Assembly (NCBI RefSeq): GCF_033807715.1 | Contig: NC_084587.1 | Location: 18,947,017-19,011,016 of the forward strand | DNA: 64,000 nucleotides | Reading direction: 5' to 3' | From: Cololabis saira | Taxonomy: Eukaryota; Chordata; Actinopteri; Beloniformes; Belonidae | In this document: one piece after another, positions 22,475 through 54,327 of the stretch | Layout of the letters: each line of letters opens with the position of its first letter | Numbering within the stretch: position 1 is the first letter of the stretch | Notes under the pieces: generated by a model | The model's database searches: none | The model's input: the letters and a program-made list of their open reading frames with translations, nothing else | What the model was told of the DNA's origin: nothing | Made by a program: the position numbers and the translations under genes

Positions 22475-22972
22475 ATGGAAGTTGTTGTGACAGAGGAGAA
22501 AAAGAAGATTTTCCGTGCTAGGAAAACCATGAAGATTAGTGATCGTCTGCAGCTGGACAGCCTTCACACCACGTTGCTGACGGCGCCAAGTTTGTCCAAC
22601 CCGTCTCCGCCTCCTCTGGTGAACGGCACACATAAAGAGGATGGACAGAAGGTGGCTGACAAGGATCAAAACAACATCACTGACTCAAACGCAAATTCAC
22701 CTGCCTCTCAGACTTCTCTGAGCTCCCCCGCACCATTCCTGTCCCTCAATCTGTCACCTTCTCCTTCATCTTCGCAAAGTCCCAAAGAGCAGGACGAAGC
22801 ACCTTCCCCCACTTCATCATTCCACTCTGTATTTTTTGACCTTAAAAAGATGGAGGGTGACGAAAAGCAGCGTTCTTCGCCGTCAAGTGAGTCTGTTGCT
22901 GCTGCATCAACTGAGCAGAAGGACCAAGAGAAAAATGACAGTGAGGGGATCACCATGGTGGAAAAGAAGCAG
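22475..22972 (+). CDS. atf7ip: atf7ip coding exon 1 (start codon)
   Basis: The acceptor CCCCACAG ends at 22468 and the ATG follows 6 bases later. The donor AAGCAG|GTAAAT closes the exon at 22972 in phase 0 (166 codons). The protein opens with an acidic-basic segment containing [15 protein letters not shown] at about residues 10-25. This closely resembles the conserved extreme N-terminus of ATF7IP/MCAF1 and is my main reason for the name. The rest is a Ser/Pro-rich disordered region, as in the family. An open frame continues upstream without an ATG, but the splice acceptor makes 22475 the natural start. ATF7IP acts in the nucleus with SETDB1 in H3K9me3 silencing (family knowledge). The name atf7ip rather than the paralogue atf7ip2 rests on the overall architecture. 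Confidence 0.88.
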
Positions 22973-23071: not shown

Positions 23072-23513
23072 GAGAAACGCAGCCCAAAAGAGGTCACAGC
23101 TGGGGCTTCAGTGACGGTTTCTGGGAAAGATTCGGCCTCCTCTTCACCCGTGCCACCTGCGGCTTCTGAATACACAGAACCAATGGAAACGGAAAGTGAC
23201 ACCACCAAGACTGCTGTCGCTGAGGCCTCCACATCCCTAGTAAAAGACAAAAAGCCTTCTTCCCTCAAAGCTCCCTCTCCCAGTTCGTCGGCGTGTCATC
23301 CAACGTCAACATCTGAACAAAAGCACACATCGACCGAAGTCACGAAGGCTGAAGTAAAAGAAGAGGATGACAAAGCTGATGTGAAGAAAGGACCAAATTC
23401 TGTCAGAAAGACGGAGATGAACAGTGTCAAAATGGAGGCAAAAAAGGAAGAAACTGATATCAAACAGATATCTAAGTCAAGTAGACCATCATCTGTTCCA
23501 CCTTTTAATACAG
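23072..23513 (+). CDS. atf7ip: atf7ip coding exon 2
   Basis: The acceptor TTAG at 23071 and the donor AATACAG|GTAAGA at 23513 bound 442 bases, which enter in phase 0 and leave with one base. The protein is Ser/Thr/Lys/Glu-rich and disordered, with short runs such as KAEVKEEDDKADVKK. No folded domain is visible. This matches the long unstructured N-terminal half of ATF7IP, which is shorter here than in mammals (about 970 residues in total against about 1270). Confidence 0.85.
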
Positions 23514-24034: not shown

Positions 24035-24204
24035 CTCGTGAAGAGAAGAGCTCAACCTCGGGACTAAAGCGCACTTTATCGGAAGGAAATGAGGAAGATG
24101 TGAAAAAAGAGGGGAAAAGGCCCAAGGTGGAGGACGAGGAGCTGGAGGCCCAACTGGAACTTAAAATCACAGCCAAAGCTGGCAGCCACCACAAGCTTGA
24201 AAAG
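24035..24204 (+). CDS. atf7ip: atf7ip coding exon 3: nuclear localisation and start of SETDB1-binding region
   Basis: The acceptor TTGTGCAG ends at 24034 and the donor GAAAAG|GTTTGT at 24204. It enters with one base carried over and leaves in phase 0. The peptide includes a basic cluster with [13 protein letters not shown] and then [16 protein letters not shown]. This segment is among the best conserved in ATF7IP and lies in the region that contacts SETDB1. The basic stretch is the probable nuclear localisation signal (inference). Confidence 0.87.
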
Positions 24205-24341: not shown

Positions 24342-24479
24342 ATTGTGCAAAACCTTGTGGAAGAACGGCTGAAGATCTTGCAGCTGAACATTTTTGACAA
24401 ACATTTTCAAGAGTTGAAAGACAGAGTTGACAAAATCGACTGTGCTACGAAACACCAAACCGCCATTAACACACTCCAA
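24342..24479 (+). CDS. atf7ip: atf7ip coding exon 4: coiled-coil, SETDB1-binding core
   Basis: 138 bases, exactly 46 codons, lie between the acceptor TTTTTCCAG (24341) and the donor CTCCAA|GTAGGT. The peptide has heptad-like spacing ([15 protein letters not shown], then [14 protein letters not shown]), as in the ATF7IP coiled region that binds SETDB1. The short open frame that runs past 24479 continues into the intron and is not real. Confidence 0.87.
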
Positions 24480-24574: not shown

Positions 24575-24646
24575 TCCAAGATATCCCGTCTATCGAAAAA
24601 GTTTGGAGAGGCTAATCAGGCATCTGAAAACAAAAGGAAGCAAGAG
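24575..24646 (+). CDS. atf7ip: atf7ip coding exon 5
   Basis: 72 bases (24 codons) between TTTCAG (24574) and GAG|GTAAGG, phase 0 on both sides. It encodes the end of the coiled region (SKISRLSKKFGEANQ). It is too short to show up as an independent frame and was found by splice-site and phase continuity. Confidence 0.85.
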
Positions 24647-24752: not shown

Positions 24753-24853
24753 GCACTCGCTGCTGCTAGTGCTGCTGCTGCTGCCGCCAGTGCTGCTGCT
24801 GCCATTACCGCCGCCAAGTCTGCAGTCGCTACAAACAACATTCAGGCTCAGCG
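24753..24853 (+). CDS. atf7ip: atf7ip coding exon 6: alanine-rich segment, branch point for two isoforms
   Basis: 101 bases between TTTCTGCAG (24752) and CAGCG|GTAAGT. It encodes a poly-alanine segment (runs of A with S and ITAAK) ending NNIQAQR, and leaves two bases (CG) to the next exon. Two different downstream exons accept this phase: 26428 (full-length form) and 25545 (BEN form). Confidence 0.83.
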
Positions 24854-24975
24854 GTAAGTGCCTCCATGCCTCGAACAGCTTCCTGTCTGAATCCTGTCCA
24901 CTGCCCTTTATGTGCTAATTTATGAGTTCAGCAATGACGTTCACAAGAGTTATCAAGGATTCACTTCACTGCAAA

Positions 24976-25015
<40 letters not shown>

Positions 25016-25544
25016 TGTTTCAAAATATTTTTGGCTATTCAAATTCACAGCAGCTGTGTGTTTGTAAATGTCATTCTTGAATCATAGAGTAGTCTGTGCA
25101 CAATGATTTTATGTGAATATAATTTGGCTTTTGTATGAACGTGACAATACTGGACTGACGGCACTGCGACACACGAGATCGTTTAGAGCTCTAACCAATG
25201 ACATTGTCCCAGGTTGCTAACTGTAATCATTAAAAACTGCACTCAAAACCAAATCGATGGGGAAAAACAAACAATCTGTACATCCTCCCAATCCAAACCC
25301 CCTTGTTCCATGTCCTTCTGTTTGGTTTGTCAGGGTCAACTTTTTCAAACTCATTAATCTCCCTCCAAATATTTCGTAAAGACTTGTTTGGACTAAACAA
25401 ACACATGCCCCAGCGTTTTTAAACCGGTAAAGTAACCCCGCGTGGGTTGAGGTCCTGAGTCTTGTGACGTTCTACAATGTGAAGCCTGAGCGTTTCTTCA
25501 GGCAGTGCAGAGTGTAGTTACAGCTGCACCTCTCCTCCCAACAG

Positions 25545-26100
25545 CGTGCTCCGTCGGCAGACAGTAGAGCCGCAGCCCGTGGTGCTCCGCGAGCGAGTGG
25601 CGCCCTCTTTTGATAAGACTCCTGCACTGTCTGTCAAGGACAAGGAAGAAGAAGAGGAGGGGGAGGGGAAGGAAACAGATATGTCGCGCCACATTGACAT
25701 GGCAAAGAAGCTGGCAGAGTACAGTGAAGGAAGAAGCAGACCTGACGTTAAGCTCCGCACAATTTCTCCCCACTTGGAGAAAGTGCTCTTCTACAACTGC
25801 ATGCGAGGCTCGGGGAACCCCAGGCCTGACCGCTATGCTTCTTACGTTTTCCGCAACTTAGTCCCGTATGAAGTCTACTGCGAGTGGGTAGCGAAGGTCA
25901 ATTATGTTGGATTAATGGGCAAGGAGGCGCTGCCCAAAAACTTGAGGAGGACGATGAGGATGTACATTGAGCGTCGATTTCCTGCGCTGTCGACTGACAG
26001 GTGGAGAGAGATTCGAGACGTTATCAATGAAATACTCCGAGTAAAGAGAAGACCGGAGTTTTTCCAAGAATATGATGGGAAGAATCTTGTGTTTTATTGA
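25545..26100 (+). CDS. atf7ip: Candidate alternative terminal exon of atf7ip encoding a BEN-like domain
   Basis: The acceptor CTCCTCCCAACAG ends at 25544. Joined to the CG left by the exon ending at 24853, the frame stays open for 185 residues to TGA at 26098-26100, and AATAAA follows at 26322-26327. The first 60 residues are polar with a glutamate run. After about residue 65 comes a compact domain: a region around RYASYVFRNLVPYEVYCEW, then GKEALPKNLRRTMRMYIERRF, then DRWREIRDVINEILRVKRR. The order (hydrophobic helix, GK-ALP, long basic helix, RFP, W-I-IN-R) fits the BEN fold, which binds DNA and corepressors. The upstream acceptor at 25502 would give an early stop, while one at 25506 would keep frame. 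Joined to exons 1-6 it yields a 658-residue protein lacking the SIM and Fn3 domain. Alternatively it could be an independent small gene, but the same strand, the phase match and the strong acceptor argue for splicing to atf7ip. Confidence 0.68.
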
Positions 26101-26321
26101 CACCCATATACAGGAACAAAAGCATACTGGGACAATTGTCATTAGTTGTATAATAGAGAATATGAAAATATTTTCTTTATAAATCCCAATCTTTATTCAT
26201 GACATCTTTTGACTTTGCACTTCTCTAATGCACAATTAAGCACTAACGATGTAAACTTGGTCCTGTAATAATGATTGTGAGTTGAATCCTCATGCAAGAT
26301 GTTCAGAGATGACTGATATGG

Positions 26322-26327
26322 AATAAA
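26322..26327 (+). terminator. Polyadenylation signal of the BEN terminal exon
   Basis: AATAAA lies 222 bases after the TGA at 26100, in an AT-rich 3' UTR-like stretch. It supports the exon being a genuine 3' end rather than a skipped internal frame. Confidence 0.6.
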
Positions 26328-26427
26328 GTTAAATGTCCACCCCAACGGGCTTTCACTGGTCATCCTGTTATGGACATGAATTACTTCCTATGTCAACACG
26401 TCTAAGTATGAGCATCTTTCTGAACAG

Positions 26428-26489
26428 GCAAGTCCGGACTTCCATAGAAGTAAAGCCGCCTCCAACTGTTTCTTCATCCAGTTCAGCTG
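26428..26489 (+). CDS. atf7ip: atf7ip coding exon 7 (full-length form)
   Basis: 62 bases between CTGAACAG (26427) and TTCAGCTG|GTGAGT. It takes the two bases CG from exon 6 and continues QVRTSIEVKPPPTVSSSSS, leaving one base. Phase is conserved on both sides, so skipping the BEN exon gives a continuous frame. The intron after it (26490-27747) contains no feature I can name. Confidence 0.8.
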
Positions 26490-28514: not shown

Positions 28515-28616
28515 ACAACCAAGCTACTGGGAGCACTCCATCGAAACCAGCTATGCCCACGGTGCGACCCAAAGGTTCTGTCATCGATCTCACTGAGGAC
28601 GACGACGATGTGCAAG
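28515..28616 (+). CDS. atf7ip: atf7ip coding exon 9: SUMO-interacting motif
   Basis: 102 bases between TTGAAG (28514) and GTGCAAG|GTAGGA. The peptide carries GSVIDLTEDDDDVQ, a textbook SUMO-interacting motif (hydrophobic V-I-D-L followed by acidic residues). ATF7IP is known to bind SUMO through such a motif, linking it to SUMOylated MBD1 and other partners. An overlapping frame that reads through the intron is not the coding frame. Confidence 0.88.
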
Positions 28617-28953: not shown

Positions 28954-30900
28954 CTGTGGTATAATGAGCATATACCACGGCTTCTATTCTAGAGCCTTAT
29001 CACAGCATATCATTCCGTGTCAGGGAAACAACAATGTATCCATGACAACAACCAACTATTACATATTTTTTGACGGTTACAGTAGGTAGCAAAAAGTAGC
29101 TGGTGTTAAAGTTTATTTTTAATTTTCGTTAACAATTAATTAGGCATGTTGACGGTAAACTCTGATCTCCGGGGAGGGCTAACGATGGATGAATGGATTG
29201 AGTGCCCGTCTGCGGAAAAAAAGACGAACAAAAGACGACATGCAGATCTGACATCTGGAGAGGTTGACCAACTCGATAAAGAGAAAAGTGAGGCGGCCAA
29301 TACAGTTAAACAGACGCGGTGGGCGGTGAAGTGCTTTGAAGACTGGTGCAAAGACAAAGGTTTGGCCGTGGACTTTCAGACGGTGTCTAAAAAAGAATTG
29401 AATGACATTTTAAGAGAGTTTTATGGCACTGTCAGAAACTTTAAAGGTGACCTGTATGGACTGAGCAGCTACACCGGTATCCGTGCAGGACTGAACAGAT
29501 ATGTCAGCGACCCCCCACTCAGCCTCTCTTGGTGCCTCCTCAAAGACAAAGAGTTCAAAACCTCTAATAATGTGTTCGCTGGCGTTGTGAACATGTTGAG
29601 GAAGAACGGACTTGACACTATAGTGCATCACACATCAATCACAAACGCTGACCTCAACACCATAAAGCGCGTCCTGAATCCAAACACTCCAACGGGCTTG
29701 GTAAATAAAGTGTGGTTCGACACGCAGCTGCATTTTGGGCGCAGAGGAAAGGAGGGAAATCGTCAGCTCAAACCCTCATCTTTTGTGATCAAAACGGATG
29801 AAAGGGGCTTGAAATACGCCACGCTGACGCACGAGGACGCCAAAAATCATGATGATCCAGAAGGCAGGAACAGGGAGAGAGTCATGTACCAACTGCCCGG
29901 TGATCCTCTCTGCCCTGTGTCCTCGTTGGAAAAATATCTCTCCGTCCTGCCTCCTGACGCGCCGGCGTTTTATCTGCATGCGAGGAAAGAGCACTGCAAC
30001 TTGGACAAAGTTTGGTAAGTGTATCATGCGTACTGTATATTTAGATGAAAGGTAAATTAATATGACAACTAAAATATGTGTGGTAACATTTAGGTTTACA
30101 CGAGAGCCGATGGGCGTCAATCACCTCTCCACAATGTTGCCCCGCATCTGCAAGGAAGCTGGCACACAGCATAGATACACCAACCTCTGCCTCCACAGCA
30201 CCCCCATAGAGAAGCTGTCTGATGCAGGCCTCAACACCACACAGATCTGTTATGGAGTAACTGCAGAAATGAATGTAAATAATTGTAAATCTAATGTTAT
30301 GGAGTAACTGCAGAAATGAATGTAAATAATTGTAAGTCTAATGTTATTAGTAACAGTATTAGTAAGAGTAAAAGCTGTAATTTTTCATTTATTTATTTAT
30401 TCGAAAAAGGTTAAAATATTTATTTATAATAGGCTATGCATTTCTCATGAATAAAACCTACATTGATTGTGTATTCCTCATTATTGTTGGAGAACCAACT
30501 GTTTCCATGACAACAACCAACTGTTACAGAAGGTAGCAGAACTTAGCAGCAGTGTTTTGACGACATTAACAAAAAGACTAAATTAGTCGAATTGACGTCT
30601 TTATGGTTAATTTTCACCTCCAGGTAGGGTTGACAATGGTAGAGTGCATTGAACAGTGACTTTCTCCTAAAAAAAAAAAAAAAAAAAAAGACGAGGAAAA
30701 GACGACATGCAGAACTAACGTCAGAGATGGGACTATTTTTTTCCACAGTGGGGCTATTTTTACTGGATAATATGTATTTCTGATTAATTAAAAACAACAA
30801 AATTGATTGTGTATTCCTCTTTCATATTTACATTATTGGTAACTGTTTTATAAAAGCAATACATCACGACAGGCCATGGTATATGCTCATTATATCACAG
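28954..30900 (+). mobile_element. Crypton-like tyrosine-recombinase element in atf7ip intron
   Basis: The element is bounded by an inverted pair of near-identical 29-bp ends (28954-28982 and 30872-30900; two mismatches). Each end holds a hairpin with arms GTGGTATA and TATACCAC around the 7-bp core ATGAGCA. It carries the recombinase frame 29146-30307 and then a second, truncated copy of its own 5' part (30484-30760). That second copy repeats words such as CCATGACAACAACCAACT and AAAGACGACATGCAGA and is interrupted by an A run. A 47-bp tandem duplication lies at 30249-30342. Cryptons are DNA transposons that use a tyrosine recombinase (family knowledge). Confidence 0.65.
29146..30307 (+). pseudogene. 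Crypton/DUF3504-type tyrosine recombinase, two exons, decayed C-terminus
   Basis: Exon one (29146-30014) and exon two (30093-30307) join across a GTAAGT...TTTAG intron in frame. An N-terminal region with KQTRWAVKCFEDWC, then FYGTVRNFKGDLYG and GIRAGLNRYVSD, matches the DUF3504/Crypton recombinase family also domesticated in ZMYM2-4, QRICH1 and KIAA1958. FGRRGKEGNRQL holds the likely first catalytic Arg. In the second box the expected H-x-x-R reads HSTP, so the Arg appears to be lost. The frame stops soon after, before any convincing nucleophile Tyr, and ends in the 47-bp duplication. Probably inactive. Confidence 0.7.
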
Positions 30901-31012
30901 CTGAGGGTCGTTCTTCAGCCCGATGCTTAAATATATTATATCTATTATATATTGTATAGTCTTATGATTAATTGGTATACATAAATAAAATGTGTGTGTG
31001 ATCTGTCTGCAG

Positions 31013-32533: not shown

Positions 32534-32992
32534 GAACCTCTGCTGAAACCTCGCCCTGTGACCTCTACGACACCAGCCCGGGCCACCAGCATGGCTCTCC
32601 CCCCTCTCCCCGCTGCTCCGGCACCGCCGCGTTTACCGCTGGACGCCGAACGGACCTCGCCCCCCCAGCAGCTGCAGCTGAAGCTGGTGCCGGGCCACAC
32701 TGGCATCGTGCTATCCTGGAGCGTGGCGGAGACCGACCGGAGCTGCGCCGCCGTCGAGAGCTACCACCTCTACGCCTTCCATCAAGACAACTCCAGCGGC
32801 AACGCAGCGCAGCAGCACTGGAAGAAGATCGGCGAGGTGAACGCCCTGCCGCTGCCGATGGCCTGCACGCTCACCCAGTTCCAGTCCGGTTCCACGTACC
32901 ATTTTGCGGTCCGAGCCAAAGACGTTTACGGCCGCTTCGGTGGCTTCTGTGAACCTCAGTGCACAAATGTCATCAGTTCCAGCTCCAGTTAA
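32534..32992 (+). CDS. atf7ip: atf7ip coding exon 12: fibronectin III domain, stop codon
   Basis: The acceptor TTTGTAG ends at 32533. The frame enters in phase 0 and stops at TAA 32990-32992 (152 residues). After a Pro/Ala-rich stretch, a fibronectin type III domain runs from about [16 protein letters not shown] through YHLYAFHQ and [18 protein letters not shown] to [20 protein letters not shown]. This is the hallmark C-terminus of ATF7IP, the part that binds MBD1. Third positions are strongly GC-rich. The complete coding sequence sums to 2904 bases, a whole number of codons. Confidence 0.92.
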
Positions 32993-51362: not shown

Positions 51363-54327
51363 TCATACATACATTGCTATTTTTTTCTCTTTAAATTTAT
51401 ATTTAAACTGAAATATGTTTATACAGCACTTCAAATCATAATTTAATGAATTCCATAACTTAATTCCAACAATTGAAGTGCTCATCTGCTTTAAGGTTGT
51501 TCGGGCAAATAAATGTTTAAAATTAAATTTTCTGCGACTATCTTCGTTATTTAAACTGAAAGTAAACATGTATTGTAAGTTTTCTGGTAATAATTTACAT
51601 TTAGCTGTGTACATGATTGTGAGTGTCTGTAACTTAACCAAATCCTCAAGTTTCAGTAATCTTGATTCAAAAAATAATCTGTTGGTGTGTTCTCTGTAAT
51701 GTGTATTGAAAATAACTCTAAGTGCTCTTTTCTGTAATAAAAATAAAGGATTCATATTGGTTGGATATGTGTTGCCCCAGATTGCAACACAATAAGATAA
51801 ATAAGGCAAAATTAATGAACAATATAAGATTCTCATTACTGTATAATTTAACACAAACTTAGCCTTGTTCAAAACAAAAATATTTTTGCACACTTTTGAT
51901 TTTACATGAGATATATGAGCTTTCCATGTCAATTTATCATCTATAATAACCCCTAAAAACCTAAATTGTGATACTCTATCAATTGGTACTCCTTCTAAAT
52001 TAAGTGATACATTTGTTTCTCTTCTTGAATGGCCAAAAATCATAAATTTAGTTTTTTTCAAATTTAAAGACAACTTATTCTCATCAAACCATTTTTTTAA
52101 TTTTACCATTTATTTTTCTATACATTTAGCAAGAGTTTCCAAATCATGTCCTGAACAAAAAAAAGTTGTATCATCTGCAAATAACACAAACTGTAATAAT
52201 TTTGACACTTCACATATATCATTAATGTATAAATTAAAAAGTTTTGGTCCCAAAACAGAGCCCTGTGGGACTCCACAAACAATATTCATATAGTTGGATG
52301 TGTTACCAAAAAACTCCCCATATGTATATAATTTTGAAATAAGAATTTTATGATCAATGGTATCAAACGCTTTTTTTAAATCAATAAAAACCCCAATTGT
52401 GTGTTTCTTGCTATCTATTGCTGTAGTAATCTCTTCTGCTAAATTCATTAAAGCAAAGGTTGTGGACCGATTTTTTCGAAAACCAAATTGATTATCACTT
52501 AACAGTTTATTTTTTTCAATAAAATAATCAAATTTTGTTACAAACAACTTCTCCAACACTTTAGAAAATTGTGACAATAATGATATTGGTCTGTAATTAG
52601 TGAAACTATGTTTGTCTCCTGCTTTAAATAATGGAATAACTTTTGCAATTTTCATTCTATTTGGAAAAATACCCGTACAAAAGGAAAGATTAAATATATA
52701 AGTTAAAGGTTTAATTATGCAATCAATAGTTTTTTTAATAATGGTCAAGTCAATTCCATCGCTATCCGTTGAAGTCTTATTTTTAAATTTTGTTACAATA
52801 GAAATAATTTCACTCTCCTTTACTTCTCCAAGAAACATAGATTGCAATACTTTACTTCCCCCTTTCGAGCTACCTACTGCTTGTCCATTATTATGTTGTT
52901 TAATAGTTTTTGCAAGATTTGGTCCAACATTTACAAAAAAGGAGTTAAATTCATTCACCACTTCTTTCATATTTTTTAGGACCACCTGGCTATCATTAAC
53001 ATAAAAGTTACTAGGTTTACTAGTGGGCTGTAAATTATTGGCAATTACTTCATTAAGAATTTTCCAGGTATTTTTTATATCTTTTTTATTTTCTAGTAAT
53101 CTTTTATTATAATAATCTCTTTTAGCCTGTCTCAATATAACTATTAACTTATTTTTATATATTTTATATTTATTTTCAGATGCTTCGGTTCTAAGTTTAA
53201 TAAAATCTCTGTAAAGTTTATTTTTTTTCTTACACGCATTTTGCAAGGACTTTGTAATCCATGGTTTTCCAATATACTTGGCTTTTGATTTATTTGGCAT
53301 TAATGGACAGTGTTTGTCATACAGTAACAAAAAACTATTCAAAAATGATTCATATGCAGAGTTAACATCATCTACATAAACTCCTCTCCAACACTCTTTA
53401 AGTAAATCATCCCGAAATGTATCGATTGCATCAGCATTTCTTACCCTTGCATATCTAGTACACGATTCTTCCTCATTTCCCCCTGTTTTACCATCATACA
53501 CTGCAAAGACTGGTAAGTGGTCAGTTATATCATTAATTAGCAACCCACTTCTGACCGAATTCTGCAAGTCATTTACAAAAATGTTATCAATTAATGTTGC
53601 CCCTTGTGATGTTATCCTACTAGGCTTAGTGATCAATGGGAATAAACCTCTGCTGTATATTGCATCTAAAAAATCTGACGTATAATTATGTTTGGATACA
53701 TTTAATAAATCAATATTGAAATCTCCACAAATAATATATGTTTTCCTCTCATTTAGCTTGTCCATTAACTCTTCCAATTTGTCTTTGAATGTTGCTATAT
53801 TTGTTCCTGGTGCTCTATACACACAAGTCACAACAATGTTTTTTTACAGTTTCCATTTCAATTTCCACAGTTATATACTCCATTAGTTCATCAATTGCCA
53901 TCGTCATAGATTCAATTAGTTTACATTTCAGATCACTGCTTACATACAAGGCCACACCTCCTCCCCTCTTACTACCTCTGTTCATATAATATAACTCATA
54001 ACCCTGAATATAAAAATCAACTCCTTTTTCTTGATTTAACCATGTCTCAGATAAGGCAAGCAATTTAAATTTGCCTTGAAATGAACTCAAATATTCATTA
54101 ATCTTAGTGAAGTTGGCGTACAGACTCCTACAATTAAAGTGTATCAACGAAAATCTTTTATTTAATTCAAAATTATCTTTGAACTGGTCATCAGTAAAAT
54201 AATCACACGTATCATTAATCCGACTGAAGACATGGCTCTCAGGGTCAACATTACATTCAAAATCATATATTTTATACTCTGAAACATCAGTTCTGGAGAA
54301 GACATGAGTGTCCAGTTGCTCACCCAT
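51363..54327 (-). pseudogene. LINE ORF2: endonuclease plus reverse transcriptase, two lesions
   Basis: About 988 codons. The APE endonuclease shows LIHFNCRSL, LSETWL, RGGGVALYV, CVYRAPG, IICGDFNIDLL and ITDHLPVFA. The reverse transcriptase shows IPLFKAGDKHSFTNYRPISL, SDNQFGFRKNRST, VFIDLKKAFDTIDHKIL, CGVPQGSVLGPKLFNLYIND and FADDTTFF, then NKLSLNLKKTKFMIF and FRFLGVIIDDKLTW. These words belong to the Jockey/CR1/Rex1-type superfamily rather than L1. Lesions: one extra A in an A run (about 53838) shifts the endonuclease frame, one TAA replaces a codon at 52110, and the segment between LYTYG and the VPQG box is shorter than in relatives, which suggests an in-frame deletion. The good preservation points to recent activity. 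Confidence 0.8.

Follow-up and report, generated by a model that had tools for sequence, protein, structure and literature searches.

A probable alternative last exon of atf7ip, predicted to encode a divergent BEN-fold tail in the saury Cololabis saira and other fish

Can an adaptor of chromatin silencing carry its own DNA-reading module? The SETDB1–ATF7IP complex probably relies for the most part on partner proteins to reach its targets, and a direct targeting route would exist if a conserved form had a DNA- or chromatin-binding module built in. The question is raised by the atf7ip gene of the saury Cololabis saira, which was analysed in a window of 64,000 nucleotides (assembly GCF_033807715.1, contig NC_084587.1, positions 18,947,017 to 19,011,016 of the forward strand). 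Coordinates are counted from the first letter of this window and refer to the + strand unless stated otherwise. Between exons 6 and 7 of the gene, a first-pass annotation had proposed an exon ending the protein in a BEN-like domain. In our estimation, atf7ip probably does use this stretch as an alternative last exon, which would give rise to a BEN-tailed short form. The exon looks real and old from its anatomy, frame and conservation, and the modelled fold is consistent with this.

The fork is preceded by six coding exons, delimited by frame and splice boundaries: exon 1 (22475..22972, with the start ATG at 22475), exon 2 (23072..23513), exon 3 (24035..24204), in which the ATF7IP_BD/coiled-coil region begins as placed by Pfam through the turbot protein P0002, exon 4 (24342..24479), exon 5 (24575..24646) and exon 6 (24753..24853). 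They form a single frame with GT/AG at the inner boundaries. The C. saira ATF7IP model P0068 matches the window exons in pieces, several of them at 98–100%; its residue 1 aligns at 22475 and it lacks part of exon 1. Exon 6 (tgcag/GCACTC ... CAGCG/gtaagt, slashes marking the splice points) has its donor at 24854 and carries two bases forward, as had been annotated, and both of the proposed continuations restore the frame: canonical exon 7 (26428..26489, competing acceptor gaacag/GCAAGT) completes the codon as CG+G and the alternative exon (cccaacag/CGTGCT) as CG+C, arginine in either case. The alternative acceptor AG is located at 25543..25544 and is preceded by the pyrimidine tract ctctcctcccaacag. 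The coding part of the exon (25545..26100) is open up to a TGA at 26098–26100 and is followed, before exon 7, by the annotated AATAAA, a candidate polyadenylation signal (26322..26327). It comprises 184 full codons, or 185 residues with the split Arg codon, and together with exons 1–6 predicts a short protein of 658 residues. The tail frame opens at 25483, after a stop, and its first in-frame ATG, at 25681, comes after 45 tail residues. An open frame of 184 codons has a chance of ~1.6e-5 per trial at local intron composition, the exon itself being G+C-richer; a chance open frame is ruled out because the tail is conserved in other fish.

This conservation emerged from protein searches. Of the 410 candidates in the first, in which the 658-residue form was the query and only residues 475–658 were scored, four matched at E ≤ 0.01. 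These are turbot P0002, Ataeniobius P0003, Scortum P0004 and Siganus P0005, with 65–75% identity to the saury over 76–96% of the query. The second used turbot residues 560–829, limited scoring to the 7,992 candidates with the most words in common and classed the best 120 of 226 matches by motif patterns. Among these 120, BEN is present in five, one of which is the icefish model P0006 (NCBI 'isoform X2'), FN3 without BEN in 106, a piggyBac motif in four, a Crypton motif in one and none of these in four; Pfam additionally detects a transposase domain in P0019 that the motif pattern overlooked. In P0002, P0003, P0004, P0005 and P0006 the joint between exon 6 and the tail falls on an identical residue, which supports the claim that the alternative last exon continues the atf7ip frame and is shared with other fish. 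Models P0003–P0005 proceed to exon 7 by splitting the BEN domain midway. A profile of six tails retrieved 69 proteins, in distinct clusters, among 1,984 candidates. Two of the 69 are named proteins and the remainder are open reading frames (ORFs) of contigs; they span 133–266 residues, with 61 falling between 160 and 200. Many of their starts are uninformative, because the M (V in relatives) is the start codon picked by the ORF caller. Aligned with the saury tail (70 rows), they display 25 invariant columns. Tail residues 94–170 are best conserved (mean majority-residue frequency 0.83–0.88); the frequency is 0.73–0.78 at residues 2–30, position 2 being reached in 39 of the 70 rows, and 0.61 in the acidic linker (residues 31–45). 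All but four of the 69 end no more than 25 residues past the core end, at what may be a stop or a contig end in each, and so do saury and turbot. No transcript of the BEN-tailed form was recognisable in the database protein searches, which returned gene models and ORFs; it may be scarce or confined to certain tissues.

The conserved residues begin directly at the AG (from 25546), despite the saury frame having no ATG before 25681. Among eight related proteins with visible upstream sequence, Asn-Ser was seen by eye before the boundary in seven (P0059, P0162, P0179, P0183, P0188, P0189 and P0190), which is consistent with an acceptor AACAG/C; the exception, P0173, has Ser-Ser. Further upstream, a conserved intronic stretch (25461..25490) ends 54 bases 5' of the alternative exon and encodes LVTFYNVKPE in a frame other than that of the BEN ORF, and the unspliced ORFs P0179, P0183 and P0188 begin with a peptide close to it. 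On the simplest reading, from a comparison at peptide level only, this stretch would be a conserved non-coding element 5' of a regulated acceptor.

Does the tail adopt a BEN-type fold, as had been proposed for its C-terminal 110 residues or so? Pfam BEN (PF10523) gives the saury tail 16.5 bits against a cut-off of 23.2, and covers profile positions 31–75 only. The same profile matches 42 of the 70 tail rows at E ≤ 0.1 (best 2e-4), and a related repeat copy at C18:6813285 exceeds the cut-off with 25.6 bits. An initial AlphaFold model from six sequences, several of them truncated, was weak (mean pLDDT 57) and was superseded by a 70-row model, for which fold comparison supports a BEN helical fold over tail residues 70–170. 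This basic core is encoded at 25753..26055, and the proposal is upheld by the predicted fold in that range. ATF7IP has been described as a two-hybrid partner of the BEN protein NACC1 in a passage of PMC10393139. With Foldseek by itself, BEN could not be told apart from noise (NACC1 BEN at rank 3, E 2.2). Among solved structures, a sequence search with a single tail returned nothing up to E 10, and the 70-row profile matched only an unrelated chain (E 0.62). A viral source of the tail was also considered; Foldseek against viral models found no match at E ≤ 0.001, by which absence is not proven. Since the fold agrees and the Pfam gathering score, a diagnostic cut-off and not a biological feature, is missed, the tail is called a divergent BEN-fold domain and no formal Pfam member. 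Its core is basic, and the modelled domain is probably DNA-binding.

What would the short form keep, and what would it lose? As annotated, SUMO and MBD1 modules would be absent: the motif VIDLTEDDDDVQ (28580..28615), which we take to be of the SUMO-interacting type, and the C-terminal region with FN3 of the long form (32543..32989; located by tblastn of P0013, in which Pfam finds fn3_4), corresponding to the MBD1-binding region, both lie 3' of the alternative exon. Retention of the SETDB1-binding part, also claimed, is partly supported: approximately positions 1–126 of the 219 in Pfam ATF7IP_BD (PF16788) are encoded by shared exons, and the rest is swapped for the first half of the alternative exon. 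That half itself matches ATF7IP_BD at about positions 127–217. Taken by itself, it exceeds the 27.6-bit cut-off in P0122, with 34.2 bits, and falls below it in the saury, with 16.4; 48 of the 70 tails match at E ≤ 0.1 (best 1.1e-11; positions 127–217 in P0122). The ATF7IP_BD seed may include sequence of this exon, or the charged composition may be alike. According to passages in PMC7706265, residues 562–817 of human ATF7IP bind SETDB1, and the partners of FN3 include MBD1, ZMYM2 and MGA; the SETDB1-interaction region is required for SETDB1 nuclear localisation and silencing, and FN3 is dispensable for both, yet aids efficient silencing in mouse cells.

In the mechanism that we propose, the acceptor at 25544 would be used in place of that at 26427 and the transcript would end at the intronic polyadenylation site. 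In the product, the half of ATF7IP that comprises the N-terminus and the coiled coil would lead into the acidic linker and then into the basic BEN-fold domain. The coiled-coil half would still contact SETDB1, and the BEN domain would dock the complex directly on DNA or chromatin, substituting for the recruitment of the long form via the SUMO-binding motif and the FN3 partners. We infer that the form is spliced and translated in this way, binds DNA and SETDB1 and acts in silencing. If the exon were fish-specific, the BEN-tailed form would be absent from mammalian cell models.

Other explanations of the stretch have to be set against this one. A small independent gene, driven by a promoter inside the atf7ip intron, might have the BEN frame as its coding exon, and the NCBI model P0173 of Dunckerocampus dactyliophorus (194 aa) speaks for this, as the model consists of the tail alone on a contig as long as that of the atf7ip protein P0112. 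Such a gene is unlikely in the face of the 45 saury tail residues that precede the first in-frame ATG, of which residues 2–30 are conserved, and of the identical joint to exon 6 in P0002–P0006. There is likewise little reason to expect that the exon is mainly an off-switch, by which intronic polyadenylation removes the C-terminal silencing part, the BEN tail itself being secondary (dominant-negative or dosage control). The AATAAA ahead of exon 7 fits such a switch, as does a product without the SUMO-interacting-like motif and the FN3 domain that aids silencing in mouse cells (passages in PMC7706265), but pure truncation would need neither 25 invariant columns nor a kept BEN fold.

The icefish model P0006, in which the whole BEN core is joined to exon 7 and FN3 stands at the end, suggests an internal cassette that in some fish would add the BEN domain to full-length ATF7IP instead of acting as a last exon. 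We regard this as quite improbable: 65 of the 69 proteins end shortly past the core, be it at a stop or a contig end, as do saury and turbot, and the joins in P0003–P0005 halve the BEN domain, as a gene predictor might. A functionless transposon-gene fossil is suggested by the transposon-associated BEN repeats that make up 10 of the 11 other listed genomic matches. It is very improbable, since 69 distinct protein clusters retain both the open frame and the residues of the core, whereas a single one of the 24 repeat matches listed, the query copy itself, is full-length without stops.

Where would an alternative last exon of this kind have come from? A genome search with the tail listed 12 matches at E ≤ 1, namely the window and 11 others at 27–33% identity; the 10 mentioned above belong to a transposon-associated repeat with a coiled-coil-BEN ORF. 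The best non-self match (L002/L043, C13:28030909-28031199; 33% identity, E 4e-8) lies in an open frame in which Pfam has no match. A repeat copy used as query yielded a list of 25 matches that ends with the window tail; the 24 repeat matches group into 15 loci and are mostly broken or partial. A DDE_3/Tc3-type transposase ORF adjoins the BEN-repeat copy on C18. A search with this ORF, in which 118 of 2,589 candidates were scored, gave a list of 119 matches. At an analyst-chosen cut of at least 65% identity there are 11 transposase loci, six of which have one of the 15 BEN-repeat loci no further than 6 kb away, five of them no further than 1.2 kb; the 6-kb radius was set after data inspection, and the random-placement chance is ~1.7e-4 per locus. 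By hhalign the tail matches the coiled-coil-BEN repeat at E 2.6e-12 (probability 97.65%, 98 columns, 30% identity). No profile link was seen to the saury three-BEN gene on C16, presumably BEND3-type (E 0.088, probability 0.65%), and very few sequences stood on the second side of both comparisons. The repeat and the C16 BENs match weakly (probability 36%, E 3.7e-4). Because of the profile match between tail and repeat and the adjacency of the transposase, a transposon origin of the tail can reasonably be inferred; the opposite descent, from tail to repeat, may also be compatible with these comparisons. Loci L037, L038 and L041 (on C17, C18 and C8) apparently hold a decayed element with two ORFs in divergent orientation, a Tc1/mariner-like transposase and a coiled-coil-BEN protein, DDE_3 being over the cut-off only in L038. 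The inverted repeats found around the BEN repeat do not cleanly flank one element.

Other mobile-element modules occur at ATF7IP. Isoform models from five other fish (P0014, P0019, P0070, P0106 and P0116) end in DDE_Tnp_1_7 transposases according to Pfam, which we take to be of piggyBac type. There are at least two such tail families, because the P0019 tail is 31–35% identical to the other four, and in four of the five models the transposase follows the same host residues (TSLTSKT). These models may be annotation artefacts. Crypton-derived (DUF3504) exons are found in an atf7ip intron of the window (29146–30015 and 30095–30274) and are used in P0068 'isoform X2', which afterwards continues into the atf7ip exon at 31007, by eye apparently in another frame, and then stops. 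In the saury, a percomorph fish, the Crypton-derived frame of ATF7IP is open. Passages in PMC3212892 and PMC9004415 report the Crypton in ATF7IP and date it to the gnathostome ancestor. The BEN tail is apparently new: no prior report was found in the open-licence literature, where absence is weak evidence. As a speculative and rather doubtful extension, ATF7IP would be a collector of mobile-element domains (BEN tail, Crypton module, piggyBac tails) and the BEN form a self-targeting silencer, perhaps against donor transposons; each captured module would then be a candidate DNA-reading head for the SETDB1 adaptor.

The pipefish version of the tail, P0173, is called 'protein Pat-like' by NCBI. 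The Xenopus germ-plasm protein Xpat is also known as Pat. If the name points to Xpat, the tail may be related to a germ-plasm protein of frogs; no paper was found on Xpat with a BEN domain or on pgat with atf7ip, and passages of the Xpat papers PMC3827131, PMC9624338 and PMC3633952 mention neither a BEN domain nor ATF7IP. Elsewhere in the window, a 577-residue open frame on the − strand (52110–53843) resembles, by eye, a non-LTR retrotransposon endonuclease/reverse transcriptase.

Compared with known systems, the predicted short form has exons 1–6 in common with the SETDB1 adaptor ATF7IP (MCAF1/AM), and turbot reads into the tail identically; it differs from the long form in the loss of everything from exon 7 onward and in the gain of the BEN-fold tail. 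With BEN-domain proteins such as BANP, BEND3 and NACC1 the tail shares the predicted fold and a basic core, whereas its sequence remains below the Pfam cut-off and it is attached to a SETDB1 adaptor. Its closest placeable BEN relative, the coiled-coil-BEN repeat near a Tc1/mariner-like (DDE_3) transposase, is multi-copy, contains a separate coiled coil (by eye) and is unconnected to atf7ip. In CSB-PGBD3 and similar fusions, host exons are reportedly spliced to a mobile-element coding exon within an intron; there the donor is a transposase, whereas in the saury it would be a BEN domain of putative transposon origin. The Crypton recombinase module in the same window is likewise a foreign coding module available by alternative splicing, but represents another domain in another intron and was previously published (passages in PMC3212892 and PMC9004415). 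BEN-tailed ATF7IP would join the genes that capture mobile-element domains via alternative last exons, and would do so as a chromatin-silencing adaptor.
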